From Novosphingobium ginsenosidimutans (lineage in GTDB: Bacteria > Pseudomonadota > Alphaproteobacteria > Sphingomonadales > Sphingomonadaceae): 64,000 bases of DNA. The notes below the pieces were generated by a model. The model saw only the letters and a program-made list of their open reading frames with translations, did not search any database and was not told the DNA's origin. The stretch lies in assembly GCF_007954425.1 (NCBI RefSeq), contig NZ_CP042345.1:2540001-2604000 (forward strand), given 5' to 3'. The position numbers and the translations under genes were made by a program. Every line of letters starts with the position of its first letter. The stretch's first letter is position 1. Below, one piece after another: positions 19,063-36,858 of the stretch.

Positions 19063-19181
19063 GGACCAAGCCTTTGCTCGCTTCATCGCGGGCCGTCAAT
19101 CTGTGGGGAAAGCCCCGCCAGCGGGTTTGCGCAGCGGGCATGCGCTCCCTAGATGGGGCCAAAGATCAACAGGGAACTGTC

Positions 19182-20129
19182 ATGGCCACCCATACCACCA
19201 AGATGCTGATAATCGGTTCCGGCCCCGCCGGGCTTTCGGCGGCGATCTATGGCGCGCGCGCCGGGATGCAGCCGATTGTGGTCCAGGGGCTGCAACCGGG
19301 CGGCCAGCTGACCATTACCACCGACGTCGAGAATTACCCTGGATTCCGCGATGTGATCCAGGGCCCTTGGCTGATGCAGGAAATGCAGGCCCAGGCCGAA
19401 CACGTCGGCACGCGCATGCTGTGGGACACAATCGTTTCGGTCGACATGTCGGGCTCGCCGTTCCGGGCGATCGGCGACGGCGGGGACATCTACGAAGGCG
19501 ATACGCTGGTGATTGCGACGGGGGCCCAGGCCAAGTGGCTTGGCGCATCGGGCGAGCAGGAATTCTCGGGCAAGGGCGTTTCGGCCTGCGCCACCTGCGA
19601 CGGGTTCTTCTATCGCGGCAAGAAGGTCGTGGTGATCGGCGGCGGCAACACCGCTGTCGAGGAAGCACTCTACCTCACCAACCACTCGCAGGACGTAACC
19701 CTGATCCACCGCCGGGATTCGCTGCGAGCCGAAAAGATCCTGCAGGATCGGCTGTTCGCCCATCCCAACATCAAGGTGCTGTGGAACAAGGCGGTTGAGC
19801 GCTTCGTGGGTGAGGGCGGTCTGACCGGGGTCGAGCTCAAGGACACCGTAACCGGCGAAACCATGGTCGAACCGGCCGACGGTGCTTTCGTCGCGATCGG
19901 CCATGCGCCGGCGACTGAGCTCTTCAGGGGCAAGTTGGAGCTCGACAGCAGCGGCTACATCATCGTCGAACCGGGAACCCCCAAGACCGCCATTCCCGGC
20001 GTGTTCGCCTGCGGCGATGTGATGGACCATACCTATCGCCAAGCCGTGACTGCGGCTGGGACGGGCTGCATGGCCGCGCTTGATGCCGAACGGTACCTCG
20101 CGACGAAGGAATTCGCCGCGCGCGGCTAA
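19182..20129 (+). CDS. trxB: Thioredoxin-disulfide reductase
   Basis: A 315-residue low-molecular-weight flavoprotein that reduces thioredoxin with NADPH. The FAD motif is IIGSGPAGLSAAIYGARAG. The redox cysteines are C136 and C139 in CATCDG. The NADPH motif is VIGGGNTAVEEALYL with HRRDSLRA after it. The C-terminal FAD motif is GVFACGDVMDHTYRQAVTAAGTGCMAALDAERYL. All are standard. ATG 19182 has AGGGA upstream. A possible promoter TTGCGC-N17-TAGATG lies about 30-60 bases upstream, but both boxes are weak. It converges on the XrtA hydrolase gene with a four-base overlap. Confidence 0.95.
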   Translation: MATHTTKMLIIGSGPAGLSAAIYGARAGMQPIVVQGLQPGGQLTITTDVENYPGFRDVIQGPWLMQEMQAQAEHVGTRMLWDTIVSVDMSGSPFRAIGDGGDIYEGDTLVIATGAQAKWLGASGEQEFSGKGVSACATCDGFFYRGKKVVVIGGGNTAVEEALYLTNHSQDVTLIHRRDSLRAEKILQDRLFAHPNIKVLWNKAVERFVGEGGLTGVELKDTVTGETMVEPADGAFVAIGHAPATELFRGKLELDSSGYIIVEPGTPKTAIPGVFACGDVMDHTYRQAVTAAGTGCMAALDAERYLATKEFAARG

Positions 20130-20941
20130 TTGAAGCTGCGCAGCATGGCGAGGATCTGGCCAAGGAGCCAGAGCCGGGCCTGCGGTTCAATGAAGCTGTG
20201 GCTTGCGCCCGGACACATGTGCAGGTGCGGATCAGCCTTGTCCCAGTTCGCCAGGAAGGCCTGAGCGGTGCGGTCATTCTCAGCCAGCAGGATGGTGACC
20301 GGCCCAGTGAAGCGGGCAAGACCATCGGCCAACTGCTTGGCCAAGGGGGTGGGCGCGCCATCGCTTTTGGCCGCTTCGGTTAGGGATGACGCCATCTTGC
20401 TCAGTTCAACCTGGCCCGTTAGCAGCCGCCAGATGGCGCGGGGATCGGTTAGTCGCCTGAGGTAGTGACGGCGCAGAACTGATGGCGGCATAGTCTGCTG
20501 CGCAGGCGCTTTCGCGACTTCCGGCGCGGCTCCCGGCTCCGGCTCGAAAGTCCATGGATTGGCAAGAGCCAGGGCATCAAGCCCCGCACCGCCCGCCAGC
20601 ATTAGCGCGCTGGCAGCGTCACAATTTCCGAAAGCAACGATCCGCTCAAGCGTCGGCACCTGGGCGCGGAAAGCTGCAACTGCGGCCGCAATATCGGCAG
20701 CGGAGCGCGCAAATCCAGCATTGTCGCCTGCACTGTCACCGACGCCGCGGCGATCAAAGCGGAAAGTCGGGAATCCGGCGGTGGCCACCTTCTCGGCAAT
20801 TTGGGCCTGGCTGCCCCAAGGACCGGCGCGCAACTCGTTGCCGCCGGTCACAATCAGCAGGCCGGTGCGGCCCGCAGCAAGGTCTAGCGTGCCGACCATC
20901 TCGCTGCCATCGCAAGCAAATGCCACGGGGCGCCGCGTCAT
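20126..20941 (-). CDS. Exosortase A system-associated hydrolase 1 (alpha/beta hydrolase with cysteine at the nucleophile position)
   Basis: A 271-residue alpha/beta hydrolase that I match to the 'hydrolase 1, exosortase A system-associated' family. It opens with RRPVAFACDGSEMVGTLDLA. The strand motif RFDRRGVGDSAG is canonical. The nucleophile elbow, however, reads FGNCDAAS (G105-N-C107-D-A), so cysteine replaces serine. An acid (LLAENDRTAQAF) and a histidine (GASHSFIEPQ) are in place. A Cys-His-Asp triad suggests thioester or acyl-transfer chemistry, fitting the acyl carrier protein two genes upstream. It is the last gene of the leftward XrtA arm and overlaps hydrolase 2 by four bases. Confidence 0.88.
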   Translation of the reverse strand: MTRRPVAFACDGSEMVGTLDLAAGRTGLLIVTGGNELRAGPWGSQAQIAEKVATAGFPTFRFDRRGVGDSAGDNAGFARSAADIAAAVAAFRAQVPTLERIVAFGNCDAASALMLAGGAGLDALALANPWTFEPEPGAAPEVAKAPAQQTMPPSVLRRHYLRRLTDPRAIWRLLTGQVELSKMASSLTEAAKSDGAPTPLAKQLADGLARFTGPVTILLAENDRTAQAFLANWDKADPHLHMCPGASHSFIEPQARLWLLGQILAMLRSFN

Positions 20942-21612
20942 CCGCGCATCGCCATCGTCAGGTATGCCGCCAGGCCATCGGCCTGACCCATATCGGCATC
21001 AGGTTCGGCACGCAGCCACAGGGGGCTGCCGCCAAGCAGGTCTTGCTCAATCTCGGCGAGGTCCGGATTTGGCTGCGCTGCCTGCAATTGCTGGACCATT
21101 GCGGCCGCCAGGCGATAGCCTGCCAGTTCGATTCCATGCTCTTGCGCCTCGATCAGCAGACCTTCGCCGTTCTCTTCGCGGCCTGCCTCTCGGCTCGACA
21201 GGACCCGCGCGCGGATCAGGGTGCGCAGCTGGCTGGCACCCTTTACCGGGGCATAGCACCAACCGGGCAGGGCTTGCGGCGCCAACAGTCCACCGCCGCG
21301 GATGGCGAGTACATGGGTTGCGTCAAAGTTGCTGGCGGCGGCTCTGATGGCGGCCGTCCAGTCGGTCAGCGCCAAGGTCTGCAGGTCGACCAGGCTCTCA
21401 TTGGTTCCAGGAAGGTCCGGCAGAACGCTATCGATTCCGGTGCCGGTAAGCCGCCGCATCACATCAACGCACAGTCGCCGCAGCCGATGGCCCTCATCGA
21501 ACAAAGCGGGGATGATGAGCAGCCGCTGCGCCGCGCCGCTATCAAAAGCTAGCGCATACTCGGCGGCGCGCGATCCATCGGGTAGGGGGCAGGGATAGCT
21601 GGTGAGGTTCAC
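20938..21612 (-). CDS. Exosortase A system-associated hydrolase 2 (alpha/beta fold, nucleophile absent)
   Basis: A 224-residue protein I assign to the 'hydrolase 2, exosortase A system-associated' family. It has the alpha/beta hydrolase start (LLIIPALFDEGHRLRRLCVDVMRRL, then DSVLPDLPGTNES), but the elbow after the central strand reads VLAIRGGGLLAP (R105-G-G-G108) with no Ser, Cys or Asp. It may therefore be a non-catalytic partner of hydrolase 1 or use another residue. It overlaps hydrolase 1 and the upstream acyl carrier protein by four bases each, so these three are certainly one translational unit. Confidence 0.85.
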   Translation of the reverse strand: MNLTSYPCPLPDGSRAAEYALAFDSGAAQRLLIIPALFDEGHRLRRLCVDVMRRLTGTGIDSVLPDLPGTNESLVDLQTLALTDWTAAIRAAASNFDATHVLAIRGGGLLAPQALPGWCYAPVKGASQLRTLIRARVLSSREAGREENGEGLLIEAQEHGIELAGYRLAAAMVQQLQAAQPNPDLAEIEQDLLGGSPLWLRAEPDADMGQADGLAAYLTMAMRG

Positions 21613-21872
21613 GCCGCTTCGCGCTTGGCCTCGGCAAAGGCAAGCAGGTTCCCAAAGGTCTCGAGCAGTTCGCCGTCGACCTCGTCATCCTCGATGACGA
21701 TATCGAGACGGTCTTCCATTTCGGTAAGCAGTCCGGCAACCGCCATAGAATCGAGTTCGGGCAGATGGCCAAACAGTCCCGTGTCGGCATCGAAGGCGTC
21801 GGCCTGACCTGCCTTCAGCCCGAGCACGTCGGTCAAGATACGCCGCAGAAGCTGATCGGTATTGCTGCGCAT
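21609..21872 (-). CDS. Acyl carrier protein of the XrtA locus
   Basis: An 87-residue acyl/peptidyl carrier protein. The phosphopantetheine attachment serine is S42 in ELDSMAVAGLL. The rest is the usual acidic four-helix pattern (LLRRILTDVLGL, LLTEMEDRLDIVIEDDEV, LLETFGNLLAFAEAK). I chose ATG 21872, preceded by GGGGGAA, since the open frame upstream to 22082 is overlap with the neighbour. It is not the fatty-acid AcpP, whose motif would be DSLD with a different context. It sits between the GNAT-like gene and hydrolase 2, opposite the AMP-forming ligase that could load it. Confidence 0.9.
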   Translation of the reverse strand: MRSNTDQLLRRILTDVLGLKAGQADAFDADTGLFGHLPELDSMAVAGLLTEMEDRLDIVIEDDEVDGELLETFGNLLAFAEAKREAA

Positions 21873-21912
21873 CGTTCCCCCGTGCCGCGTGGTTTCCTCT
21901 ACGGCCGCGCCT

Positions 21913-22926
21913 CTAGCCATCGGACTGGCCTGCTGCAACCCTGCGCAGTAGCTTGCGGGCGATTGCCGGCCATGTTCCGGGCCATTTGGCGCGAAAGGCC
22001 TCGATCCGGTAGCGCGGGCGGACCAGCTCCATCCAGTCGCGCTTATAGGCATCGTTGCCGGTGCCAAAATCGACAAGATCAACTTTGTCGATATCGATTA
22101 CCCGTTCCAGCAGGGCCGCAGTCAGCGTGGTCCCGGGCGATAACGTCTTGGCGTCTTCCACATGGGCCAGCTTGTGAATGTAGGCGGTTCCGGCCTCGAC
22201 CGTCCAGAATTGTGCGGCGACCGGACGCCCGTCAGCCCGGGCGATGGCAAGACGAAGACGGCCTGCAGCCCCCTCCTGCTCGGCGAAGCGGCGCAGAAAG
22301 CCTGGGCAGCCTTCCTCACCTTTCCAGCTCTGCGCGTAGATCGCTTCGTATGCGTCCCAGCTGTCCGGGTTGAATGCCGTTTCGATGCTTACTTCGACCT
22401 TGTCAGCCTTGCGCTTTAGCGTGGTGCGCAAAGGGCCAGCTCGTTCGGCCAGGTACGCGGCATAGCTGCGACCATTGACCGTAAGCACGTGGTTGACGTC
22501 GCACCGCTCGACAAAAGTGACCCAGCCGGCCTGACGCAAGGCCTCGACCAACATACTTGTCTCGCCATGCTCGTCTGGAAGCGGGGAAAGCACCAGGTGT
22601 GGTGTCTGTCCGGCGAGGTCCTTGGCCAGTTCGGATAGCAGCCATGCCCGATCGGCACCGGGCGTGAATAGCGGCGCTACCCGGAAGGCGTACCAATTGG
22701 CCAGGCAATGGACCTGACGCCCGCGGCGGAGCAGGGGCATGACGGCACGGTGTCGACCATCGCGAACGACAACGATAAGAGGCAGCAAATTGCAGCAGTC
22801 GGAGAGACCCTGCCACCATTCGAGCCGATCAAATGGCGCGCGGGCGGCGGGCGCATGCAGCAGTGCAGCAAGGGCGGCATCACCTTGCACTTCCTTAAGA
22901 TCATCGTGATATTCGACCGAAATCAC
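21913..22926 (-). CDS. GNAT/FemAB-type acyltransferase of the XrtA locus
   Basis: A 337-residue protein of the GNAT superfamily in the CelD/BioF2-like branch. It contains two tandem half-domains. The C-terminal half is the better one: WDAYEAIYAQSWKGEEG, RLRLAIARADGRPVAAQFWTVEAGTAYIHKLAH and the long LSPGTTLTAALLERVIDIDKVDLVDFGTGNDAYKRDWM, which matches the acyl-donor site of this branch. It probably transfers an acyl or aminoacyl group to a sugar or amine. The start is GTG 22926, with GGGGGAT upstream. It heads the leftward arm, 35 bases from the divergent ligase start. A second, different FemAB-like gene lies at 33001. Confidence 0.82.
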   Translation of the reverse strand: MISVEYHDDLKEVQGDAALAALLHAPAARAPFDRLEWWQGLSDCCNLLPLIVVVRDGRHRAVMPLLRRGRQVHCLANWYAFRVAPLFTPGADRAWLLSELAKDLAGQTPHLVLSPLPDEHGETSMLVEALRQAGWVTFVERCDVNHVLTVNGRSYAAYLAERAGPLRTTLKRKADKVEVSIETAFNPDSWDAYEAIYAQSWKGEEGCPGFLRRFAEQEGAAGRLRLAIARADGRPVAAQFWTVEAGTAYIHKLAHVEDAKTLSPGTTLTAALLERVIDIDKVDLVDFGTGNDAYKRDWMELVRPRYRIEAFRAKWPGTWPAIARKLLRRVAAGQSDG

Positions 22927-22961
22927 ACGCCCAATCCCCCACCACCCGGAGCCCCATCCCC

Positions 22962-24485
22962 GTGTCTGCCAGCCTGCCGATCGATCCGAAACCGCTCGAT
23001 CACCTGGCCATGATGGGCGAGGGAGCGGCTCCGGCGCTCGTGCTGCGCGACCGTACCCTTAGTCACAATGACTTAAGGGAAAGTGTCGGACGACTGGCGG
23101 CCTGGTTGACCCAGCAGGTACCGGAACCAGGTGCGCGGATCGCCAGCTGGGCGGCCAAGGGCGAACTGACCTGCCTGTTGCCGCTCGCAGCGGCGCGCGC
23201 CGGGCTGGTGCATGTGCCGATCAATCCGCTGCTCAAGCGTGCGCAGGTCGCCTATATCCTGTCCGATAGCGGATCGCGGCTGCTGGTCGGCACCCCAGCT
23301 CGACTGGCGACACTCGAGGAGGGGGATATTCCCTTACAGTGTATTGTGAAGTCTGAATCAGAAACCATTGTAGAATATGGGAAGTGTTCTGGTTTACCGG
23401 AATCAGAAGCTGATCCTCAAGAGCTTGCGGCGATCCTCTATACCTCTGGCTCAACGGGCCGGCCGAAAGGGGTGATGCTGAGCCACGCGAACATGTGGCT
23501 GGGTGCTGAAAGCGTGGCGTCTTACCTCGCCCTGACGTCGCAGGACGTCACTCTGGCGGTCCTGCCGCTGTCGTTTGACTATGGGCAAAGCCAGCTGCTT
23601 TCGACCTGGTTTGCAGGCGGCTGTGTGGTGCCGCTCGATTACCTGACCCCGCGCGATGTCGTAAAGGCGGTCGAAAAGCATGACGTCACGACGCTGGCGG
23701 CAGTGCCGCCGTTGTGGGTGCAACTTGCGGAACTGGACTGGCCGAAGGAGACATCGGCCCGCCTGAAGCGCCTGACCAATAGCGGCGGCGCGCTGACGGT
23801 TGACCTCGTTCGCCGCCTGCGAGCGCTGTTCCCGCAAGCCCGACTGTTTCCCATGTACGGTTTGACCGAGGCGTTCCGTTCGACCTTCCTCGATCCTAGT
23901 TTGGTTGACAGCCACCCTACATCAATGGGCACGGCTATTCCCCATGCCGAGATACTGGTGATCGGGGATGATGGCGCGGTGACAGATGACGGTGAAGAGG
24001 GCGAGCTGGTCCATTGCGGCCCGTTGGTCGCCCAGGGGTACTGGCAGGACCCAGAGCGGACGGCAGAGCGCTACAAGCCGGCTCCGGCGGCGTCACGCTA
24101 TGGCGGCGTGGCGGTGTGGTCGGGCGACCGGGTTCGCCGTGAAGCGGATGGACTGCTCTACTTCGTCGGGCGGCGTGACGCCATGATCAAGAGCGCGGGC
24201 AACCGCATCAGCCCGCAGGAAATCGAGGACGCTGCGATCAGCACAGGTCTGGTGGCCGAAGCAGTGGCGCTGGGCATTCCTGATGATCGGCTGGGCCATG
24301 CCGTGCATCTGGTCGTCCGGGCTGCTCCCGGCGCTTCAGATGCTATCGAAGAATTGCCTCGCAAACTCATGCAAGAATTGCCCAATTTTATGCAGCCTAA
24401 GCAGATCCATTGGCGCCACGCCCTGCCTATCTCCCCCAACGGCAAGATCGACCGGACCGGGCTCTACGCGGAGCTGACGGCGTGA
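22962..24485 (+). CDS. Acyl-CoA ligase (AMP-forming), exosortase A system-associated
   Basis: A 507-residue adenylate-forming enzyme. The P-loop is YTSGSTGRPKG (160-170). Later motifs are PMYGLTEAFRST (A5), WSGDRVRREADGLLYFVGRRDAMIKSAGNRISPQEIE (A7-A8) and the C-terminal lysine motif SPNGKIDRTGL (A10). It activates a carboxylic acid as acyl-AMP and passes it to CoA or, given the neighbouring carrier protein, to ACP. I match it to the ligase family restricted to XrtA loci. GTG 22962 has CGGAG upstream. An AT-rich patch covers codons 124-152, just before the P-loop. The stop overlaps the decarboxylase start as GTGA. Confidence 0.9.
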   Translation: MSASLPIDPKPLDHLAMMGEGAAPALVLRDRTLSHNDLRESVGRLAAWLTQQVPEPGARIASWAAKGELTCLLPLAAARAGLVHVPINPLLKRAQVAYILSDSGSRLLVGTPARLATLEEGDIPLQCIVKSESETIVEYGKCSGLPESEADPQELAAILYTSGSTGRPKGVMLSHANMWLGAESVASYLALTSQDVTLAVLPLSFDYGQSQLLSTWFAGGCVVPLDYLTPRDVVKAVEKHDVTTLAAVPPLWVQLAELDWPKETSARLKRLTNSGGALTVDLVRRLRALFPQARLFPMYGLTEAFRSTFLDPSLVDSHPTSMGTAIPHAEILVIGDDGAVTDDGEEGELVHCGPLVAQGYWQDPERTAERYKPAPAASRYGGVAVWSGDRVRREADGLLYFVGRRDAMIKSAGNRISPQEIEDAAISTGLVAEAVALGIPDDRLGHAVHLVVRAAPGASDAIEELPRKLMQELPNFMQPKQIHWRHALPISPNGKIDRTGLYAELTA

Positions 24486-25708
24486 AGCCGCTTGGCCCAA
24501 TCCCGGCTGGCTTCGTCGCGATTGACGGCGAGCTTGCAATCGGCGGTCACAAGGTCAGCGACCTTGTTGTCCAGGCCGGGCGAACGCCGCTGTTTATCTA
24601 TTCGCGCGATCGGATCGCGGGCCGCGTGGCCGAACTTCGCGCTGCGTTACCGGCCCAGGTGGCGCTGAACTATGCGGTCAAGGCCAACCCCTTCGGTCCC
24701 CTGCTGCAGGCGATGGCGGGGCTTGTCGACGGCTTTGACATCGCCTCTGGCGGCGAACTGGCAATGGTCACGGCGGCTGGCATCGATCCGGCGCGGGTCA
24801 GCTTTGCCGGTCCTGGCAAGCGCGATTCTGAGCTGGAAGCGGCCATTTCGGCTGGCGTCACGCTCAATCTCGAATCCGAAGGTGAAGCTGACCGAGCGCT
24901 GACTATTGCCGGACGTTTGGACGTTTCGCCGCGCCTTGCAGTCCGGGTGAACCCAGATTTTGACCTCAAAGGGTCCGGGATGAAGATGGGCGGCGGGGCC
25001 AAGCCTTTTGGCATCGATGCCGAGCGGGTGCCCACTCTGGTAAAACGGTTGCTGGCTGCCGGAGCGGACTGGCGCGGTTTCCATATCTTTGCAGGCAGCC
25101 AGGCACTTGATGCGGCTGCGATTGCCGAGACCCAGGCCGAGACGATTGCCCTCGCGGCGCGTTTGGCGGATGAGGCCGGAGCTCAGCCGCCCAAAGTCAA
25201 CCTCGGTGGCGGGTTTGGTATTCCATACTTTCCTGGCGATCTACCTTTGGACCTCTCCGCTGTGGGAGAGGCGCTGGGTGCGCAGTTCCAAAGGCTTCCG
25301 ACCGAGCTTGCCGGAACCGGGTTCTGTATTGAACTTGGTCGATATTTGGTCGGTGAAGCAGGAGTTTACCTGACGCGGGTTGTCGACCGTAAGTTAAGCC
25401 ACGGAGAGGTCTACCTCGTCACAGACGGCGGCCTTCATCACCAGCTGGCCGCCTCGGGTAACTTTGGCACGGTGGTCCGTCGCAACTATCCAGTGGCTAT
25501 TGCCAACCGCTTTGACGCGCCGGTCGATGAGGAAGCGACTGTGGTGGGCTGCCTTTGCACGCCGCTTGATCGTCTGGCGGACAAGGGCGGCTTCCCGCGG
25601 GCCGAGGTAGGCGACCTCGTCGCCGTGTTCTGCGCCGGTGCCTATGGGGCAAGTGCCAGCCCGGCGATGTTCCTTGGCCAGGGGCCAGCGGCGGAACTTC
25701 TGGTTTAA
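24482..25708 (+). CDS. PLP-dependent decarboxylase, exosortase A system-associated
   Basis: A 408-residue fold-type III (alanine racemase-like barrel) decarboxylase related to diaminopimelate and ornithine decarboxylases. The PLP lysine is K67 in NYAVKANP. VDGFDIASGGELAMV and a VNPDFDLKGSGMKMGGGAKPFGID stretch match the family, as do NLGGGFGIPYF and the C-terminal ELGRYLVGEAG with VFCAGAYGASASPAMFLG. It would remove the carboxylate from an amino acid, giving an amine that could be acylated by the ACP/ligase module (inference). The start is GTG 24482, overlapping the ligase stop. The XrtA family version is distinct from LysA. Confidence 0.9.
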   Translation: MKPLGPIPAGFVAIDGELAIGGHKVSDLVVQAGRTPLFIYSRDRIAGRVAELRAALPAQVALNYAVKANPFGPLLQAMAGLVDGFDIASGGELAMVTAAGIDPARVSFAGPGKRDSELEAAISAGVTLNLESEGEADRALTIAGRLDVSPRLAVRVNPDFDLKGSGMKMGGGAKPFGIDAERVPTLVKRLLAAGADWRGFHIFAGSQALDAAAIAETQAETIALAARLADEAGAQPPKVNLGGGFGIPYFPGDLPLDLSAVGEALGAQFQRLPTELAGTGFCIELGRYLVGEAGVYLTRVVDRKLSHGEVYLVTDGGLHHQLAASGNFGTVVRRNYPVAIANRFDAPVDEEATVVGCLCTPLDRLADKGGFPRAEVGDLVAVFCAGAYGASASPAMFLGQGPAAELLV

Positions 25709-25897
25709 CCTTTTGCCGTCTCTGCATTGGCGAACGGTACGGGGCCTGAAAACAACGGCTTCGCGCGCGTCTCAACGAGTAAGACTAACGCAATATTCAC
25801 CCTTTTTGCCGATACCGCAGGCTGAACTGCCGGGTCTGCGAGCGGGAAGGGCATAGCCCGATCAACGGCACGGCGCTCCGATTTGAGGATATGCCCG

Positions 25898-26542
25898 ATG
25901 CCGATCGACTGTTTCACGCGCCTGCTGGCCGGTAGCGCCATGGCCAGTCTGGCGCTGTCAGGCTGCGCCAGTGGCGGGGGCGGCCAGCAATTGCCGCCGG
26001 CAGCCTTCGTCTCGATGCAGGAAGGTCCGGGTGAGGAATACGTGATCGGTGCGCTCGACGAGTTGACGATCTTCGTCTGGCGGAATCCGGAACTTGGCGC
26101 GCAGGTCCAGGTCCGCCCGGACGGTCGCATCACCACGCCGCTGATCACCGACATGCCGGCCGTGGGCAAGACGCCGAAAATGCTTGCGGACGACATCACC
26201 CTGCAGCTTTCGCAGTACATCCAGGAACCGCTGGTCTCGGTCATCGTCAACAAGTTTGCCGGCACCTTCAGCCAGCAGGTTCGCGTGGTGGGGGCCACCA
26301 CCAAGCCGGCCTCAATCCCCTATCGTGCCAACATGACGTTGCTGGACGCAATGATCGCAGTTGGGGGGCTCAGCGAATATGCCGCAGGCAACAAGGCCCG
26401 CCTGATCCGCTTTGACAAGGGAAGCGGCACGCAGAAGGAGTATGCGATCAAGCTGGGTGACTTGCTGCGCAAAGGCGACAGCAAGGCCAACGTCATGCTG
26501 ATGCCAGGCGACGTCATCATCATCCCTGAAAGCACGTTCTGA
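25898..26542 (+). CDS. XrtA-associated polysaccharide export lipoprotein (Wza-like)
   Basis: A 214-residue outer-membrane polysaccharide export protein. The lipoprotein signal MPIDCFTRLLAGSAMASLALSGC ends in a lipobox (LSGC). A Poly_export domain follows (EEYVIGALDELTIFVWRNPELGAQVQVRPDGRITTPLITDMPAVGKTP) and then a SLBB domain (VRVVGATTKPASIPYRANMTLLDAMIAVGGLSEYAAGNKARLIR). It should form the outer-membrane exit pore for the XrtA polysaccharide. ATG 25898 has GAGGA eight bases before it. The 189 bases upstream hold no gene and probably a promoter I cannot pin down. Confidence 0.92.
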   Translation: MPIDCFTRLLAGSAMASLALSGCASGGGGQQLPPAAFVSMQEGPGEEYVIGALDELTIFVWRNPELGAQVQVRPDGRITTPLITDMPAVGKTPKMLADDITLQLSQYIQEPLVSVIVNKFAGTFSQQVRVVGATTKPASIPYRANMTLLDAMIAVGGLSEYAAGNKARLIRFDKGSGTQKEYAIKLGDLLRKGDSKANVMLMPGDVIIIPESTF

Positions 26543-26567
26543 GGAAGGGGCGCGCGAAGGGCGGGCG

Positions 26568-28088
26568 ATGAACAACATTTACGACGAACTGCGCGCAGCG
26601 CTCCATTCGATCTGGCATCGCCGGTGGTTGGCGCTCGCCGTTGCCTGGGCGGTCTGCCTGCTCGGCTGGCTGGTAGTGGCCATGGTGCCCAACACCTATG
26701 AATCGAACGCGCGGCTCTATGTGCAGCTCGACGATGCTCTGTCGGAAGTGACCGGAGTTGGCGTCGGCAATCGCAAACGCGATATCGACCGGGTCCAGCA
26801 GACCCTGACCAGCGCGGTCAATCTCGAAAAGGTCATTCGCTCCACTGCAGTCGGCGAGGAGATCACTTCGCCCAAGCAGATGGAAGCGGCGGTCCTGGGC
26901 CTTGCGAAGAAGATCAAGGTCGAGAACGTCAAGGACAACCTGTTCGAGATTAAGGCCCAGTTCGGGGATGGCTCGCGCTCGGATGCCGAAAACGCGAAAA
27001 TTGCCCAGGACATCACCCAGAAGCTCATCGACATTTTCCGCGAAGAGAACCTGGCCGGCAACCGCGGCGAGATGACTCAGTCGCTTGACTTCATGAACCA
27101 GCAGTTGGCCGATCGCCAGAAAGAGCTTGAAGCAGCCGAGCAGAAGCGCCTGGCCTTTGAAGCTTCGCATCCGGAACTGATCCAGGGCGGGGCGAGCGCG
27201 CTCCAGCGGCTTGAAGCCAGCCGTTCGGAACTGCGCGGAATAGATGCAGACCTTGCCGCCGCGCAGTCGGCACTAGCGGCAATCAATGGCCAGCTTGCCG
27301 GCACGCCGCAGACCCTGCCGGGCATCGGTCCGCAAGGCGGCGCCCGTGGCGCTTTGGCCGAGGCACAAGCCATGCTTTCAGGTCTGCGCTCGCGAGGCCT
27401 CACCGAGAACCATCCTGACGTGATTGCCGCGCGCAACCAGGTCAACGCCCTGAAGGCGGCGGCAGGCTCAGAAGGCGGCGCGGACGGCATTCCAAACCCG
27501 GCCTACAGCTCGCTGCAGTCGATCAAGGCCGAGCGGCAGGCCAATGTCCAGTCGCTGATGGCGCGCCGTGCCGCGATCCAATCGGACATCAGCCGGGTCA
27601 CCGGTATGCAGGTCAACAACCCGGAGCTGGCAGGCGAACAGCAGCGGATCAACCGCGATTATGACGTGCTGAAGCAGCAGTATGACAAGCTGCTGCAAGA
27701 CCGTGAAGAGCTGCGCCTGCGCGGCCAGGTCGAGACCGAGCACAATGCGGTGAAGTTCGAAGTGATCGATCCGCCGACGACACCGCGCGCCCCGGTCGCG
27801 CCGAACCGGCCGCTGCTGCTGGTGGCCGTGCTGGTGTTGGGCGTTGGTGCCGGTGTTGCCGCTGCCTTCGCGATCGGCCAGCTGCGTTCGACTTTTGCCA
27901 CCACGGCAAAGCTCGAGCGGGTCACTGGTCTGCCGGTGCTTGGCGCCATCAGCCAAACGCTGACCGACAGCGCCCGCGCGCTGCGCAAGCGCCGGATGAA
28001 GCAATTCTACATGGCCAGCGCTGCGCTGGGCGGGATCTTTGTGCTGCTGCTGGTGGCCGAGATGATCCAGGTCAGCATGGTGGCGTGA
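26568..28088 (+). CDS. XrtA-associated polysaccharide chain-length determinant (Wzz-type co-polymerase)
   Basis: A 506-residue inner-membrane protein. The N-terminal transmembrane helix is at about 22-44 (LALAVAWAVCLLGWLVVAMV). A large periplasmic region follows with long coiled-coil helices (residues 170-400, including MNQQLADRQKELEAAEQKRLAFEA). The second helix is near 420-445 (PLLLVAVLVLGVGAGVAAAFAIG), preceded by the Wzz-type proline motif FEVIDPPTTPRAPVAPNRP. A further helix lies at the C-terminus (485-505). It sets polymer length together with the separately encoded kinase that follows ten bases later. I match it to the exosortase-associated chain-length family. Confidence 0.92.
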   Translation: MNNIYDELRAALHSIWHRRWLALAVAWAVCLLGWLVVAMVPNTYESNARLYVQLDDALSEVTGVGVGNRKRDIDRVQQTLTSAVNLEKVIRSTAVGEEITSPKQMEAAVLGLAKKIKVENVKDNLFEIKAQFGDGSRSDAENAKIAQDITQKLIDIFREENLAGNRGEMTQSLDFMNQQLADRQKELEAAEQKRLAFEASHPELIQGGASALQRLEASRSELRGIDADLAAAQSALAAINGQLAGTPQTLPGIGPQGGARGALAEAQAMLSGLRSRGLTENHPDVIAARNQVNALKAAAGSEGGADGIPNPAYSSLQSIKAERQANVQSLMARRAAIQSDISRVTGMQVNNPELAGEQQRINRDYDVLKQQYDKLLQDREELRLRGQVETEHNAVKFEVIDPPTTPRAPVAPNRPLLLVAVLVLGVGAGVAAAFAIGQLRSTFATTAKLERVTGLPVLGAISQTLTDSARALRKRRMKQFYMASAALGGIFVLLLVAEMIQVSMVA

Positions 28089-28098
28089 GAGGCTTGAA

Positions 28099-29172
28099 AT
28101 GACCGAACAGAGCAAGATCCCCGTTCCGCCGCAGGATGAGCCGGCCGAAGTGAAAGGCTCGCTGATCGAGCGTGTGGTGCGCAATTACGATCTGGTGAAG
28201 CTGGCCCCCGCGCCGATCCCGGAAGAGCTGATCCCGCCCGCGGCCAAGCGTCGACGCTATCGCCGCGTCGACGAAGTGGCCGAGGTTGAGGAAGTCGCTC
28301 CCGTGGCGGCGCCGGCGCCCGAGCCGGCAGCAGCCCCAAGGGCCCGTCCCGAAGTGGTGGAGCCCGAGGTCATCGTGCCCGCCGCGGCCGCACCGCCGAC
28401 TGAACTGGTCCAGTCTGTTGCGCCGGTGCAGTTCAAAGGTGCGGTCAATCCGGTCAACCGCCAGAACCTGCGCGACCAGGGTCTGATTGTTCCGGAAGGT
28501 TCGGTCACCGCGCTGCTTGAAGAGTTCCGGATCGTGAAGCGGCAGCTGCTGCTCAACGCCGGGCATCTGCAGCAGCAGGGTATGGGCTATGCCGCGCAGC
28601 GTGTGTTGATCTGCTCGCCCCATCCGGGTGAGGGCAAGACCTTTACTGCGGTCAATCTGGCGCTGGCGATCGCTGCCGAAAAGGAAACCGAAGTGCTGCT
28701 GGTCGATGCCGACTTCGCCAAGCCTTCGGTGCTGTCCTCGCTTGGCCTGCCAGGCGGCAAGGGGCTGATGGACGCACTCTCGGATCCGTCAATAGATGTC
28801 GCCGATTGCGTGCAGGGTACCGATGTCTCGGGCCTGTGGGTGCTCCCGGCGGGTAACGCCACGACCTCCGACACTGAATACCTTTCCAGTTCGCGTACCC
28901 GCCAGGTGCTCGATCGCTTGGTTGAGGGGGCACCCCACCGCTTCGTCATCTTCGATTCGCCGCCGGCGCTGGCTGCCTCACCCGCGGCTGAACTGGCCAA
29001 GTATGTCGGGCAGGCTGTTGTTGTCGCCCGCGCTGACCGGACCGGGCAAGGCTCGCTGGAGGACGCAATCCGCCTCCTGTCAGGATGTCCGAACATTCAA
29101 CTGCTTCTGAACGCCGTACATTTCAGCCCGAGTGGCCGTCGCTTCGGGTCCTACTATGGCTACGGGGGGTAA
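28099..29172 (+). CDS. XrtA-associated tyrosine autokinase (BY-kinase)
   Basis: A 357-residue cytoplasmic kinase. Residues 30-115 are a Pro/Ala/Glu-rich low-complexity segment. The BY-kinase domain has Walker A SPHPGEGKT (K180), Walker A' VLLVDADFAKPS and Walker B FVIFDSPPAL. It ends in a very short tyrosine cluster, GSYYGYGG. It partners with the preceding chain-length protein, whose cytoplasmic end normally activates the kinase; phosphorylation cycling of the tail controls polymer assembly (family knowledge). The ribosome site of the next gene lies in its last codons. Confidence 0.92.
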   Translation: MTEQSKIPVPPQDEPAEVKGSLIERVVRNYDLVKLAPAPIPEELIPPAAKRRRYRRVDEVAEVEEVAPVAAPAPEPAAAPRARPEVVEPEVIVPAAAAPPTELVQSVAPVQFKGAVNPVNRQNLRDQGLIVPEGSVTALLEEFRIVKRQLLLNAGHLQQQGMGYAAQRVLICSPHPGEGKTFTAVNLALAIAAEKETEVLLVDADFAKPSVLSSLGLPGGKGLMDALSDPSIDVADCVQGTDVSGLWVLPAGNATTSDTEYLSSSRTRQVLDRLVEGAPHRFVIFDSPPALAASPAAELAKYVGQAVVVARADRTGQGSLEDAIRLLSGCPNIQLLLNAVHFSPSGRRFGSYYGYGG

Positions 29173-29174
29173 TC

Positions 29175-30926
29175 GTGACCTCTGACTTCAAACGGCTGGT
29201 TGTCGTGCTCTGCGCCGGGACTGCGCTGAGCCTGCCGCTGGCCGCCCATGCCCAGACGATCGCTTATGGCGACGTGTCCGGTTCGGGCGCGCAGGCCTCG
29301 TCAGATCTTGGAAGCGATGCTGCCGAAGGCAATGACGATAGCAAGAACGATGTCCGTTCATCGCGCCGCAGTGGTGGCAAGAAGGTCAGGGTCACGCCTT
29401 ACATCGAGGCGCAGCAGGTGGTTTTCGCCGAGCTGAAGCCGGGTAATGATGTGCTGACCTATTCCGTGCTTGCCGCCGGGGTTGATGCCGCGATTGCCGG
29501 GCGCAACAATCAGGCCTCGGTCTCGGTCCGTTATGAGCGCCGCTTTGGCTGGGGTGACGCGACCGACAGCGATGCGATCAGCGGCGTGGCGCGGGCATCA
29601 CTTTCGGTCGTACCGCAGACGCTGAAGTTCGAAGCCGGCGCTCTCGCCGCCCGCACCAGCGTCGAAAACAATGGCGCTGCCGTGACCAGCGGGCTGGAGT
29701 TCGGCGATAGCGTCACCCAGATCTACGCGATCTATGCTGGCCCGCAGCTTGCTACCCATGTTGATGACGTTGCTCTGACTGGTTCTTACCGGTTGGGGTA
29801 CACCCGCGTCGAATCGCCGGACGCTGTCCAAATTGCGCCGGGCCAGGCACCGATCGATGTGTTCGACGATTCGATTACTCACAACGCAGCGGTCCGCGCC
29901 GGCGTGAAGCCGGGCGATGTCCTGCCAGTCGGACTGGGCGTCGGCGCGGGATACAACCGCGAAGACGTTTCCAATCTAGATCAACGCATCGAAGACCGCT
30001 GGGTACGTGGCGACGTTACTGTGCCAATTACGCCTGATCTCCAGGTAGTCGGCGGCCTTGGCTACGAGAAGGTGCGCGTTTCCAGTCGCGATGCCGTGCG
30101 CGATCCGATCACCGGTGCGCCGGTGCTGGGTTCAGATGGCCGCTTTGTTACCGACAAGAGTGTGCCGCGCGCGATTGCTTACAACGCTGATGGTCTGATC
30201 TGGGATGCCGGGGTTATGTGGCGACCCAGCCGCCGGACTGCGCTCGAGGCTCATATCGGTAAGCGCTATGGCTCAACCAGCTATTACGGCAGCTTCGCCT
30301 ATGCGCCTAATTCGCGCAGCAGCTTCAACGTTTCGGTCTATGATGCGATCAACGGGTTCGGTGGCCAGCTCAACAATGCGCTGTCGAGCCTGCCGACCGA
30401 GTTCGAAGCGGTGCGCAACCCCTTCAACGGTTCCCTGTCCGGCTGTGTCGCAACCAGTGGCTCAGTTGCTGCGGGTCAGAGCCCGTGCCTCGCGACCGCG
30501 CTTGGCTCAGTCCGCAGCTCGGTGTTCCGGTCGCGCGGCGTGATGGCGAGCTACACCGTCAACGGCAACCGCTTTCAGACGGGAATTGGCGCCGGTTATG
30601 ACCGCCGTAGGTTCATTGCCGCGCCGGGCACGGTCTTGGCAGCTGCGAATGGGGTGATTGACGAAAATCTCTGGGTTGCGGCCTATCTCAACGGCCGGAT
30701 TGATCGGAGTTCGAGCTTCTCAACCAGCGTCTACGGAAGCTTGTACGAAAGCGGAGACGCCTTGTCTGGCGACATCACGGCAATCGGCGCGACCGCCGCC
30801 TATTACCGTCAGCTGACCAGCAAGCTGACCGCCACTGCCGCCGTTGGCATCGACGGGGTCAAGCGTGAGAACCTGGTCGATATCTGGTCCGGCCAGGCCA
30901 TGGTCGGCCTACGCTATTCGTTCTGA
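29175..30926 (+). CDS. XrtA-associated outer-membrane beta-barrel protein
   Basis: A 583-residue protein with a signal peptide (SDFKRLVVVLCAGTALSLPLAAHAQ, cleavage after AHA). An Asp/Ser-rich start is followed by repeated amphipathic beta strands rich in aromatic girdle residues (for example SVRYERRFGWG, GSYRLGYTRVE, GLGYEKVRVSS, RYGSTSYYGSFAYAP). The last strand, AMVGLRYSF, ends in the phenylalanine typical of outer-membrane barrels. I match it to the uncharacterised TIGR03016-like family found in exosortase loci. It may be an outer-membrane channel or assembly factor for the polymer or sorted proteins. The start is GTG 29175 behind GGGGGG; the frame is open further upstream inside the kinase gene. 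Confidence 0.82.
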   Translation: MTSDFKRLVVVLCAGTALSLPLAAHAQTIAYGDVSGSGAQASSDLGSDAAEGNDDSKNDVRSSRRSGGKKVRVTPYIEAQQVVFAELKPGNDVLTYSVLAAGVDAAIAGRNNQASVSVRYERRFGWGDATDSDAISGVARASLSVVPQTLKFEAGALAARTSVENNGAAVTSGLEFGDSVTQIYAIYAGPQLATHVDDVALTGSYRLGYTRVESPDAVQIAPGQAPIDVFDDSITHNAAVRAGVKPGDVLPVGLGVGAGYNREDVSNLDQRIEDRWVRGDVTVPITPDLQVVGGLGYEKVRVSSRDAVRDPITGAPVLGSDGRFVTDKSVPRAIAYNADGLIWDAGVMWRPSRRTALEAHIGKRYGSTSYYGSFAYAPNSRSSFNVSVYDAINGFGGQLNNALSSLPTEFEAVRNPFNGSLSGCVATSGSVAAGQSPCLATALGSVRSSVFRSRGVMASYTVNGNRFQTGIGAGYDRRRFIAAPGTVLAAANGVIDENLWVAAYLNGRIDRSSSFSTSVYGSLYESGDALSGDITAIGATAAYYRQLTSKLTATAAVGIDGVKRENLVDIWSGQAMVGLRYSF

Positions 30927-30945
30927 GCCTGATGGAGTGATGCAG

Positions 30946-32112
30946 ATGTTCAACGATTTCTACGGGCTCAGCGGGCGGCCTTTCCAACTCACCCCGGATC
31001 CGACCTTCTATTTCGAGAGCCTGACGCACCGCAAGGCGCTGTCCTATCTCTCCTACGGCCTGGCCCAGGGCGAGGGCTTTGTGGTGATCACTGGCGAGGT
31101 CGGGGCCGGTAAGTCGACCTTGGTTGCCCATCTGATGGCAACGATTGATCCGGCGCGGCTGACTGCCGCCCAGATTGTCACCAGTAAGCTCGATGGCGAA
31201 GAGCTGGTCCATGTCGTGGCCCAGGCGCTCGGCCTGATTGTCGACGGTCATGACAAGGCTTCGGCGCTCGGCGCGATCGAAGCCTTCCTGCACGACGAGG
31301 CCCGCGCCGGCCGCCGCTGCCTGCTGGTGGTGGACGAGAGCCAGAACCTTGAACTTGAAGCGCTGGAAGAGCTGCGCATGCTCTCCAACTTCCAGCTTGG
31401 CGCGCATCCGCTGCTCCAGATGCTGTTGCTCGGCCAGCCGGAATTCCGCGACACGATTCAGGATCACCCACAGCTTGAACAGCTGCGCCAGCGCGTAATC
31501 GCCGCCCATCACCTTGAAGCAATGGAGCCGGGCGAAGTCCAGACCTACATCGAGCACCGCCTGAAGTGCGTCGGTTGGGTGGGTAATCCGCAGTTCGACC
31601 AAGGCGTATATACCGAGCTTTACGAAGCCTCGGGCGGTGTGCCGCGCCGGATCAACCAGATCTGCAACCGGTTGATGCTGCTGGGCGCAGTTGAGCAGCG
31701 CGGCCGGATTGACCGGGCGATGCTGGGCCAGGTGCTCGACGAGCTTGAGCTTGATGGCACAATGCAGCTCAAGAAGATCGCTCCGCAGCCGGTCATCGAA
31801 GCGGCGCCGCAGCCCGCGCCTGCTGCGCAGCCGGTCGCCATGGATGCTGCAGCCATCGCTCAACTCCAAAGCTTGCTGGCGGAACGCGATGCACAGATTG
31901 CCGAGCTGCAGCAGGCCGTGATGGAGCTGGCCAATGAACGCGATGCTGATTTGGTCCACCCTGCCTTGAATGAAGAGCGCTTGGCCGCGCTCGAAGCGAG
32001 GTATGCTGGTCTGGAGGTCAAAATGGTGGAGCAAGAGCAGACCATCCGCGACACCCTGACCATGCTGATCGAGTGGATCGAGGCCGACGACACCAGCCGC
32101 GCGGCTGCCTGA
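30946..32112 (+). CDS. XrtA system-associated AAA ATPase (ExeA/GspA-like)
   Basis: A 388-residue ATPase. It opens FNDFYGLSGRPFQLTPDPTFYFES, typical of the ExeA/MshM-like group. Walker A is TGEVGAGKST, Walker B LLVVDESQNL, then QMLLLGQPEFRD and GVPRRINQICNRLMLLG as sensor regions. The C-terminal third is an Ala/Pro linker and a coiled coil (LLAERDAQIAELQQAVMELANERD, then a second helix). In type II secretion this family helps a partner cross peptidoglycan; here the target is unknown. Two ATGs lie close (30940, 30946). GGAG at 30934-30937 is properly spaced only for 30946. Confidence 0.9.
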   Translation: MFNDFYGLSGRPFQLTPDPTFYFESLTHRKALSYLSYGLAQGEGFVVITGEVGAGKSTLVAHLMATIDPARLTAAQIVTSKLDGEELVHVVAQALGLIVDGHDKASALGAIEAFLHDEARAGRRCLLVVDESQNLELEALEELRMLSNFQLGAHPLLQMLLLGQPEFRDTIQDHPQLEQLRQRVIAAHHLEAMEPGEVQTYIEHRLKCVGWVGNPQFDQGVYTELYEASGGVPRRINQICNRLMLLGAVEQRGRIDRAMLGQVLDELELDGTMQLKKIAPQPVIEAAPQPAPAAQPVAMDAAAIAQLQSLLAERDAQIAELQQAVMELANERDADLVHPALNEERLAALEARYAGLEVKMVEQEQTIRDTLTMLIEWIEADDTSRAAA

Positions 32113-32125
32113 TTGGGGCAATTGC

Positions 32126-33004
32126 GTGAGCGCTTCCATCCCTCGCCTGGTCAATGGCTTGTCCGTCGATGTCGAAGACTGGTTCCAGGTCGGCGCGTTC
32201 GAGAACGTGATCGATCGGCGGAGCTGGGAATCGCTGTCCGACCGGGTGGAACGCAATGTCGAGCGGATCCTTGAGCTGTTTGCATCCTGCGAGGTCCACG
32301 GCACCTTCTTCACGCTAGGCTGGGTGGCAGCGCGCCATGGTCCGCTGATGCGGCGGATCGTCGAAGCCGGGCACGAATTGGCCAGCCATGGCTGGGACCA
32401 TGCGCGCGTCTTCACGCTGGGACGTGACGCCTTTGCCCGCGATGTCGAGCGCGCCCGCAAGGTGCTGGAAGATGCCGCCGGCGTTGCGATCACCGGCTAC
32501 CGCGCTCCCAGTTTCTCGATTGATCAGCGCACGCCCTGGGCCTACGAAGTGCTCGCCGAACAGGGCTATGCCTATAGCTCGAGCGTCGCGCCGATCACCC
32601 ATGATCACTATGGCTGGCGCGATGCGCCGCGCTTTGCCTTCCGGCCATTGCCTTCGTCCTCGCTGGTCGAAATTCCGGTTACGACGGCGCAGTTTGCCGG
32701 CAAGCGGCTGGCGGCCGGCGGCGGGGGGTTCTTCCGCGTCCTACCTTATGCCTTTTCGCGCTGGGCGATCCGCCAGGTGAACACGCAGGACCGGCGCCCG
32801 GCAGTGTTCTATTTCCATCCGTGGGAGATTGACCCGGCCCAGCCACGCGTGGCCGGAGCGCCGCTGCGTTCGAAACTGCGGCACTATACCAACCTCGACG
32901 TTATGGCGGAAAAGCTGGAGCAGCTGATCCGCGAATTCGCTTGGGGCCGCATGGACCGGCTTGCCCATCATGAGGCGCAAACAGCCGTGGATCTGGCCGC
33001 GTGA
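32126..33004 (+). CDS. XrtA-associated polysaccharide deacetylase (NodB homology domain)
   Basis: A 292-residue carbohydrate esterase family 4 protein. The catalytic aspartates are in LSVDVEDWFQ. The metal histidines lie in ELASHGWDHARV. RAPSFSIDQRTPWAYEVLAEQGYAYSSS and FYFHPWEIDPAQPR complete the set. No signal peptide is seen, so it acts in the cytoplasm or on a membrane-bound intermediate. It removes acetyl groups from N-acetylated sugars of the growing polymer (family inference). The start is GTG 32126. Its stop overlaps the next start as GTGA. Confidence 0.92.
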   Translation: MSASIPRLVNGLSVDVEDWFQVGAFENVIDRRSWESLSDRVERNVERILELFASCEVHGTFFTLGWVAARHGPLMRRIVEAGHELASHGWDHARVFTLGRDAFARDVERARKVLEDAAGVAITGYRAPSFSIDQRTPWAYEVLAEQGYAYSSSVAPITHDHYGWRDAPRFAFRPLPSSSLVEIPVTTAQFAGKRLAAGGGGFFRVLPYAFSRWAIRQVNTQDRRPAVFYFHPWEIDPAQPRVAGAPLRSKLRHYTNLDVMAEKLEQLIREFAWGRMDRLAHHEAQTAVDLAA

Positions 33005-34074
33005 ACGCGCCGTTCCGCCATGCCGCGACACCGGTCGTGCTCGACCCGGCCGAGCGCGACACTTTCGCGCGGATTGACGCCTTTGTCGCGGGTCATCCGG
33101 ATGCAACGCCCTTCCATCGCCCGGCCTGGCTGACCGCCGTGGCGCGCGGCTCAGGCAACAAGGCGCTGGTGCTGGGGCTGGAGCACGGGCCGGACCTGAC
33201 GGCGGTATTGCCTTTGTTGGAGGTGCATTCGCCGCTGTTTGGCCGGGTGCTTGTCTCCAGCGGTTTCGGTGTTGGTGGCGGTATCCTGGCGACGGGGCGG
33301 GGGCAGGCTGACGCCTTGCTCGCGTTCGCCGAAGACCAGGCGCTGCGGCGCTCCTGTCCAACGATCGAATTGCGCGGCGGCCCTTTGCCGCGGGATCGCG
33401 CGGGCTGGCACGTTCGCCACGATTCTCATTGCGGCTATGTCGCTGACCTTGCGACCGACGATGAGGCGCAATTGCTGTGGGTTCCTCGCAAGCAGCGCGC
33501 GGAAGTACGCAAAGGTCTGGCCGCCGACCTGATAGTGTCGGTCGGCAGCGCCCAGGCCGATCGCGACGCGCACTACGCGGTCTATGCCGAAAGCGTCCGC
33601 AATCTTGGCACCCCGGTTTTTCCGAAGCGCCTCTTTGCCGAAGTGCTCGATGCCTTTGGCGAGGACGCCGATATCCTGACCGTCTCACACCAGGGCCAGC
33701 CGGTGGCCAGCGTCCTCTCGCTGTATCATCGCGGCGCTGTCATGCCTTACTGGGGTGGCGGCACCCATGCGGCGCGCAAGCTGCGCGCCAATGACCGAAT
33801 GTATTTTGAATTGATGCTCAACGCCCGCAGGCGCGGCTGCGCGCGGTTCGATTTCGGCCGCTCCAAGGTCAATTCGGGGGCGGGCGAGTTCAAGAAGAAC
33901 TGGGGGTTCGAAGCTGAACCGCTCGGCTATGCCAGCTGGACCGCGCCAGGAGCCGAAGCGCGCGATGCCGATCCGACCAGCGATCGCCATGCCAATCGCA
34001 TCGCACTATGGAAGAAGCTGCCCTTGCCGGTGGCCAATCTGGTCGGCCCATGGATCGCCCGGGGGCTGGCATGA
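33001..34074 (+). CDS. XrtA/PEP-CTERM system-associated FemAB-like protein
   Basis: A 357-residue member of the FemAB/GNAT superfamily. It has the two-lobe arrangement HPDATPFHRPAWLTAVARGSGNKALVLGLE and the second lobe LWVPRKQRAEVRKGL, with SVRNLGTPVFPKRLFAEVLDAFGEDADILTV and YYWGGG-type core segments (VMPYWGGGTHAARKLRANDRMYFELM). FDFGRSKVNSGAGEFKKNWGFE near the end is a hallmark of this XrtA-specific family. Other FemAB proteins transfer aminoacyl groups from tRNA to cell-wall amines, so this one may aminoacylate the polymer. GTG 33001 and the stop at 34072 both overlap neighbours by four bases. Confidence 0.9.
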   Translation: MNAPFRHAATPVVLDPAERDTFARIDAFVAGHPDATPFHRPAWLTAVARGSGNKALVLGLEHGPDLTAVLPLLEVHSPLFGRVLVSSGFGVGGGILATGRGQADALLAFAEDQALRRSCPTIELRGGPLPRDRAGWHVRHDSHCGYVADLATDDEAQLLWVPRKQRAEVRKGLAADLIVSVGSAQADRDAHYAVYAESVRNLGTPVFPKRLFAEVLDAFGEDADILTVSHQGQPVASVLSLYHRGAVMPYWGGGTHAARKLRANDRMYFELMLNARRRGCARFDFGRSKVNSGAGEFKKNWGFEAEPLGYASWTAPGAEARDADPTSDRHANRIALWKKLPLPVANLVGPWIARGLA

Positions 34075-36846: not shown

Positions 36847-36858
36847 GCGACAACACCT

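Follow-up and report, generated by a model that had tools for sequence, protein, structure and literature searches.

Organisation and recurrence of the gene set

The present analysis concerns a set of six open reading frames (ORFs) on a 64,000-nucleotide stretch of the 3.1-Mb genome of Novosphingobium ginsenosidimutans, referred to here as the window, which adjoins an exopolysaccharide (EPS) gene cluster that includes the gene for the exosortase XrtA. The ORFs, the start codons of which were chosen by the analysts, form two divergent units separated by 35 bp. The two plus-strand genes encode an AMP-forming ligase of the VinN type (TIGR03098; 22962..24485), proposed to be an L-aspartate beta-carboxyl:carrier protein ligase, and a BtrK-like fold-III pyridoxal phosphate (PLP) decarboxylase with an LCTPLD loop (TIGR03099; 24482..25708), proposed to be a beta-aspartyl-carrier protein alpha-decarboxylase. 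The four minus-strand genes encode a PF13480 transferase with a FemX/MprF-type double-GNAT fold (GNAT; 21913..22926), a candidate beta-alanyl transferase; a stand-alone acyl or aminoacyl carrier protein with an LDS serine (ACP; 21609..21872), 40 bp from the GNAT gene; hydrolase 2 (20938..21612), an alpha/beta-hydrolase relative with weak similarity to TIGR03101; and hydrolase 1 (20126..20941), a TIGR03100 alpha/beta hydrolase with Cys107, Asp223 and His248 that may act as a thioesterase or acyltransferase. In a family scan of the six ORFs, three scored above the curated NCBIfam cut-offs (TIGR03098, 638.7 bits; TIGR03099, 597; TIGR03100, 226.4), all matches of the ACP fell below them and the GNAT had no match. 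TIGR03098 and TIGR03099 are themselves hypothetical equivalogs only, named for exosortase A.

An earlier reading made from the sequence alone had described six genes in two divergent, tightly overlapping units, and this description is confirmed. Overlaps of 4 bp occur at three junctions (hydrolase 1/hydrolase 2, hydrolase 2/ACP and ligase/decarboxylase), the GTG start of the decarboxylase lying within the ligase stop. In 41 of 80 named loci the complete order is found again, from hydrolase 1-hydrolase 2-ACP-GNAT through ligase-decarboxylase to eight EPS genes, with contig ends cutting several other loci. The 80 loci ranked best among at least 588 confirmed stretches, six of them being titled only Alphaproteobacteria or Proteobacteria, and the ligase served as the query that retrieved them, such that its presence is by construction; the closest named ligase relatives among the matches listed are from Novosphingobium and other Sphingomonadales. 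Where at least 3.5 kb was available on both sides (65 loci), the ACP and the decarboxylase were each present in 65, the GNAT in 55 and hydrolases 1 and 2 in 48 each, as counted by tblastn at E 1e-3, a threshold that diverged hydrolases can escape.

The ligase, carrier protein and decarboxylase

When the full ligase was searched against the PDB, non-ribosomal peptide synthetase proteins with two matched stretches ranked first and VinN next. Restricting the query to residues 196-346 placed VinN at the top, followed by 13 other sequences, and with residues 249-346, the portion that holds the substrate-binding loop, the two VinN sequences were the only matches at E<=1e-4. Ligase residues D206, Y207, S274 and R306 align with Asp246, Phe247, Ser315 and Arg347 of the VinN chain, which, with an offset of 16, are VinN Asp230, Phe231, Ser299 and Arg331. 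The roles of these residues are taken from papers that are all later than the VinN structure paper (PMC7756342, PMC11253843, PMC12186527; cited, as are the other articles below, from excerpts). In the VinN type, residue 231 is bulky and the loop lacks one residue compared with the usual length (PMC11253843). For a relative, AfcQ, L-Asp has been shown to be activated, and its activation is placed at the side chain and ascribed to the same Arg (PMC12186527). Equivalents of the Asp230/bulky 231 and Ser299/Arg331 pairs are all present in the window ligase. Across 93 aligned ligases (92 distinct, L022 and L076 being one locus), D206 and R306 are invariant, Y207 is kept in 91 and Ser or Thr at position 274 in 92, whereas none of seven weaker-scoring adenylation domains from the same loci, used as a control, has an equivalent of R306. 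An Asp-like substrate is proposed to be activated in this pocket through its side-chain carboxyl. The phosphopantetheine serine that the sequence-only reading had assigned to the carrier is borne out by an LDS serine in 82 of 82 aligned ACPs, and cooperation of the ligase with the ACP, which that reading had also supposed, is very probable.

The best solved relative of the decarboxylase is BtrK (216 bits), followed by a LysA (143 bits), and a profile built from 15 decarboxylase relatives gave 411-412 bits for BtrK, 358-362 for SbnH and 282 for the top LysA. The loop that carries the catalytic Cys reads LCTPLD in the window protein and LCTPED in BtrK. Loops of the CESGD type are usual in LysA, and the organism's own LysA, encoded at a separate genome site (426 bits), has CETGD. 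Assignment as LysA was rejected on these grounds, the window protein scoring 222 bits against the TIGR01048 cut-off of 297.9 and having CTPLD in place of a CESGD-type loop; a polyamine decarboxylase was rejected along with it, BtrK being the closest solved relative. In a tree drawn rooted on LysA, and containing several long branches, the window decarboxylase groups with those of genomes G155, G107, G102, G019 and G126 (98/99), and BtrK falls in a neighbouring group with moderate support (81-85% bootstrap). An apparent ligase-decarboxylase fusion in G155 was discounted, the open frame at L022 9230-11824 being an out-of-frame extension of two adjacent genes.

Other members of the decarboxylase family were encountered in different settings. 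At loci L030 (8056-10497) and L031 (9104-11590), from other alphaproteobacteria, a BtrK-like decarboxylase is fused to what appears by eye to be an acyl-CoA-dehydrogenase-like domain, and more adenylation domains lie nearby, as does a VinN-type ligase (TECHR motif), an arrangement that resembles bolagladin dehydro-beta-alanine chemistry. Most genomes of the family f24, which is rich in metagenome-assembled genomes (MAGs), hold a TIGR03099 relative of roughly 270-300 bits, and its loci L033 and L034 form a separate clade with L035 and L040 in the decarboxylase tree.

From homology to BtrK and VinN we infer a single linear route, with loading through the side-chain carboxyl and decarboxylation on the carrier. 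The ligase would activate the beta-carboxyl of L-aspartate, or of a close amino-dicarboxylic acid, and load it onto holo-ACP, after which the PLP decarboxylase would strip the free alpha-carboxyl from the thioester-bound residue to give beta-alanyl-ACP. That the decarboxylation is carrier-bound is considered likely, and aspartate is, with a little less assurance, the probable substrate. The involvement of decarboxylation, claimed in the sequence-only reading, is supported. Its scheme in which decarboxylation yields an amine apart from the carrier, for later joining to an acyl-ACP, is not.

Distribution and association with XrtA

The XrtA/EPS cluster lies directly downstream of the decarboxylase on the plus strand (25883..38757) and encodes export, chain-length, tyrosine kinase, ATPase, deacetylase, FemAB, glycosyltransferase, XrtA and amidotransferase proteins. 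The xrtA gene occupies 35107-36846 (plus strand; 317.5 bits, cut-off 208). Six PEP-CTERM matches over the cut-off were found in the genome, compared with one in each of two of 14 control genomes. In the 249 phylum genomes examined, 14 had the decarboxylase above its cut-off and 14 had XrtA above its own, with 12 holding both, two the decarboxylase only and two XrtA only (Fisher p 9e-17); outside the family of the window the corresponding numbers were three, one and two (p 1.8e-5), both tests disregarding kinship. Linkage of the genes to XrtA is supported and strict dependence on it is not; the refuting condition named in the sequence-only reading, occurrence of the genes without xrtA, holds in part. 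In genome G107 nothing matched XrtA at E 0.001, and its ligase, decarboxylase and ACP genes lie amid glycosyltransferases, a polysaccharide deacetylase and further polysaccharide genes.

Moreover, in ten of the 65 loci the ligase, ACP and decarboxylase (the trio) are the only ones of the six genes kept. XrtA over the cut-off was found in none of these ten genomes, which come with no completeness value and of which four are MAGs or uncultured isolates, and in eight of eight full-cluster controls. Similarly, the XrtA export protein passed its cut-off in 0/10 and 8/8, respectively, with sub-cut-off relatives in all ten trio-only genomes, one of which is at once genome G155 and locus L076. Since sub-cut-off exosortase matches (124-145 bits) occur in three of the ten, other exosortases may be present in trio-only genomes. 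No internal stop was found within the matched stretch of any of the 30 trio genes. Their median pN/pS was 0.35-0.36 over 45 pairs, compared with 0.26-0.30 for ten full-cluster loci; many pairs are near synonymous saturation, so that these values show constraint and not its exact strength. For the pair L071-L072, dN/dS was 0.07-0.12. The ATPase gene of the XrtA cluster remains in L071, L072 and L076, and the deacetylase gene too in L076, which fits loss of the remaining XrtA cluster. To the right of the trio, L068, L071 and L096 have a ZapE-type (PF03969) gene, as does the window beyond its XrtA cluster (45684..46799, minus strand). On the left, L096 has a Pyr_redox gene and the neighbours in L068 and L071 differ; the left neighbour in the window (19074..20129, plus strand) is presumably thioredoxin reductase-like, judging from a CATC motif.

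The hydrolases and the GNAT go with the EPS genes, and the trio is separable from them. A module dedicated to XrtA is rejected, given that G107 and the ten trio-only genomes lack XrtA over the cut-off. This bears also on the model of the sequence-only reading, in which the decarboxylase turns a free amino acid into a free amine, to be joined by the transferase with a separate acyl thioester in the service of XrtA. In its favour are the membership of a decarboxylase family (TIGR03099) and the strong co-occurrence with XrtA, but the model is now highly improbable: the decarboxylase is nearest to a carrier-bound enzyme, with CTPLD where the organism's own LysA has CETGD, the ligase has a VinN pocket, and the trio is found without XrtA over the cut-off.

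Persistence of the trio without its partners, free of stops in the matched stretches, is a point in favour of the main rival explanation, namely that the trio decarboxylates carrier-bound aspartate at its alpha-carboxyl to provide free beta-alanine for pantothenate and coenzyme A (CoA) synthesis where PanD is lacking. A thioesterase, for example hydrolase 1, or a housekeeping enzyme would then free the product from the ACP, and the EPS link would be secondary. The absence of panD from alphaproteobacteria is already in print, with uracil breakdown as an alternative origin of beta-alanine (PMC7142369). PanD was found in none of the 25 genomes tested with the trio or XrtA and, among the 249 phylum genomes, in 0 of 14 that are decarboxylase-positive as against 145 of 235 others. 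Within 196 genomes of the order, it was present in 0 of 124 ligase-positive genomes (ligase at E 1e-150 or better, with 117 also passing its cut-off) and in 23 of 72 others, and PanC was found in 121 of the 124, in 23 of 23 PanD-positive genomes and in 35 of 49 with neither gene. At face value the pattern is complementary (p 7e-12). However, kinship confounds these comparisons: a single family accounts for 20 of the 23 PanD-positive genomes, a single genus accounts for 12 of the 14 that lack PanC and have neither gene, and the contrast within genus g139, PanD in 0/5 versus 3/9, is not significant (Fisher p 0.26). The 35 genomes that hold PanC with neither ligase nor PanD mean that other sources of beta-alanine must exist. 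In addition, the XrtA genomes G007 and G015 have neither the decarboxylase over the cut-off nor PanD, distant decarboxylase relatives stand beside PanD in G149, G010, G022 and G185, and neither the GNAT nor the recurrence of EPS genes nearby is explained. Beta-alanine supply as the role of the trio is regarded as unlikely.

Two further ORFs of the region were noted. Within the XrtA cluster, a 613-aa ORF (29085-30926) has relatives in 52 of the 65 loci and no NCBIfam match at 1e-10, and beyond the cluster a crotonase-family gene (43958-44920) shows similarity to RpfF, the diffusible signal factor synthase (183 bits, cut-off 550).

The transferase, the hydrolases and the fate of the beta-alanyl group

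By VIA-align fold comparison, the GNAT has a FemX-type double-GNAT fold and its closest folds are the tRNA-dependent transferases FemX and MprF, consistent with its initial description as GNAT/FemAB-like. No sequence in the PDB was matched at E<=1, nor was a likeness to the FemAB of the XrtA cluster itself (TIGR03019; 33001-34074, plus strand) detectable by BLASTP (E 0.022). When proteins were searched with an alignment of the GNAT, all 120 listed of 3338 matches were PF13480 proteins, some named as CelD/BcsL family and none with a function. The GNAT is proposed to be a beta-alanyl transferase with an ACP donor. An enzyme that uses aminoacyl-tRNA, like FemX or MprF, and operates independently of the trio would agree with the closest folds and with the observation that the GNAT and the EPS export genes are lost jointly from loci where the trio remains. 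This is nevertheless thought rather unlikely, since the GNAT gene lies 40 bp upstream of that for the ACP on the same strand and the association recurs (GNAT in 55/65 loci, ACP in 65/65).

At locus L037, a TIGR03694 exosortase-associated acyltransferase (PF13444; 14262-15254) was observed in the same gene run as the module, and no PF13480 GNAT was matched in that run, suggesting that transferases may be swapped between clusters. N-acyl amino acid synthases are reportedly linked with PEP-CTERM/exosortase systems (Craig 2011); the window GNAT differs from them in being PF13480 and not PF13444, and the trio implies no N-acyl product. A sugar-transfer-associated ATP-grasp gene (PF14397) also adjoins the module in L036 (3792-4955), and in L068 (16135-17430) one lies within a few kb of the bare trio.

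The two hydrolases are atypical, as the sequence-only reading had noted. Hydrolase 1 is a Cys-type alpha/beta hydrolase by sequence, with a Cys elbow (GNCDA) and conserved Cys107, Asp223 and His248, and its profile matched general alpha/beta hydrolases in the PDB, including a weak DltD-domain row. At the elbow position of hydrolase 2, assigned by eye, a conserved Arg105 takes the place of Ser or Cys; this protein scored 38.7 against TIGR03101, below the cut-off of 202.75, which its counterparts in L037 and L038 pass. The Cys hydrolase and its nucleophile-free partner may serve as a second acyl carrier or transferase, or as an editing thioesterase, although an editing or acyl-relay role for the pair is a guess.

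Taken as a whole, the reading that carrier-bound aspartate is converted to beta-alanyl-ACP, the beta-alanyl group of which then passes to a polymer, is on balance favoured. In XrtA-type clusters the FemX-fold GNAT would place the beta-alanyl moiety on the cluster's polysaccharide or its lipid-linked precursor, at an amino or hydroxyl group, and the deacetylase of the XrtA cluster could expose an acceptor amine; for polysaccharide as the acceptor, the chances seem about even. Genes, homology, pocket residues, fold and distribution are what the analysis shows; the substrate, the sequence of reactions, the acceptor and what the hydrolases do are inferred.

Several observations weigh against this interpretation. 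Known FemX-type enzymes use aminoacyl-tRNA, which leaves an ACP donor unproven. The GNAT is not near the trio in the ten trio-only loci, so that the product there is used otherwise, or by a gene elsewhere in the genome. G007 and G015 have XrtA and lack the decarboxylase over the cut-off, and no ligase was found within ~10 kb of the G102 decarboxylase (L038). SbnH likewise has an LCTP loop, and its substrate is a citrylated amino acid that is not carrier-borne (PMC7857480); the loop therefore suggests an amino acid with a blocked far end, and not an ACP as such. No description of a beta-alanyl exopolysaccharide was found among the open-access papers (PMC) listed. Finally, Y207 is replaced by Ala in L021 and L037, and S274 by Ala in L025, so ligase specificity may vary. 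Variation at residue 207 is one reason to consider that another amino-dicarboxylic acid (L-Glu, 3-methyl-Asp or D-forms) is loaded, to yield GABA-ACP or 3-aminoisobutyryl-ACP by the same logic; others are that BtrK acts on carrier-bound Glu (PMC7857480) and that VinN takes 3-methyl-Asp (PMC11284099). A glutamate mutase was not seen among 20 neighbouring ORFs scanned, however, and L-Glu would bring one extra carbon into a VinN-size pocket, making a substrate other than aspartate doubtful.

A two-ended role can also be envisaged, in which the trio would be the missing source of beta-alanine for CoA in PanD-less sphingomonads, and would therefore be retained when the XrtA cluster is lost, while in XrtA genomes the envelope polymer would also be beta-alanylated by the FemX-fold enzyme. 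The free amines so added could be exosortase nucleophiles that join PEP-CTERM proteins, much as amine nucleophiles feature in FemABX bridges and sortase. This combined scheme is speculative and seems quite improbable.

Comparison with known systems and implications

The carrier-bound chemistry itself is of a known kind. The VinN-VinL-VinO system of vicenistatin and FlvN of fluvirucin share with the window a VinN-type ligase pocket, a stand-alone ACP and PLP-dependent decarboxylation on the carrier (PMC11284099). Unlike vicenistatin biosynthesis, the window has a FemX-fold transferase and EPS genes, and no counterpart of the polyketide synthase, VinM or VinK was seen in the ORFs scanned. Of the macrolactam beta-amino acid starter systems, the second adenylation enzyme, dipeptidyl transferase and polyketide synthase were likewise not annotated among 26 ORFs scanned. 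VinJ is an alpha/beta hydrolase, so the two hydrolases of the window may be its counterpart. The logic of the trio is identical in AfcQ-AfcK-AfcP (AFC-BC11) and BolO-BolC-BolN (bolagladin), conversion of L-Asp to beta-Ala on the carrier having been demonstrated in vitro for Afc (PMC12186527, PMC7756342); those trios supply lipopeptides, whereas that of the window adjoins exopolysaccharide and exosortase genes. In the BtrJ-BtrI-BtrK system of butirosin, BtrK, the nearest solved decarboxylase, acts on an aminoacyl carrier protein (PMC7857480). The acceptor differs from that in butirosin. In addition, BtrJ is an ATP-grasp ligase, whereas the window encodes an ANL ligase. DltABCD, in which a ligase and carrier protein load an amino acid onto an envelope polymer in the D-alanylation of teichoic acid, has these two components in common with the window, the decarboxylase being extra in the latter. 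A Dlt-type system was rejected as the identity of the module, the ligase scoring 166 against the DltA model TIGR01734 (cut-off 560) and no DltB-like match being found in the ORFs scanned. FemABX and MprF, which are tRNA-dependent, have the fold of the window GNAT.

What appears to be new, as far as the open-access literature shows, is that the trio occurs among exopolysaccharide and exosortase genes alongside a FemX-fold transferase, and that it persists as a bare trio. No link between an exosortase and this carrier chemistry was found in that literature, surveyed mostly at title level, and the main text of the 2006 PEP-CTERM paper (PMC1569441) mentions no decarboxylase, ligase, acyl carrier, hydrolase or FemAB. 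The TIGR03098 and TIGR03099 families would gain a definite reaction, L-Asp to beta-alanyl-ACP, that is cheap to test, and chemistry of natural products, as in antibiotic biosynthesis, would be carried into envelope biology. We know of no description of polysaccharide modification in XrtA systems; if the group ends on the polymer, amines would be added to an exported polysaccharide. If the product is instead free beta-alanine, a documented gap in alphaproteobacterial CoA synthesis would be filled. Either way, the module is best viewed as a trio plus its clients, and not as an XrtA accessory.

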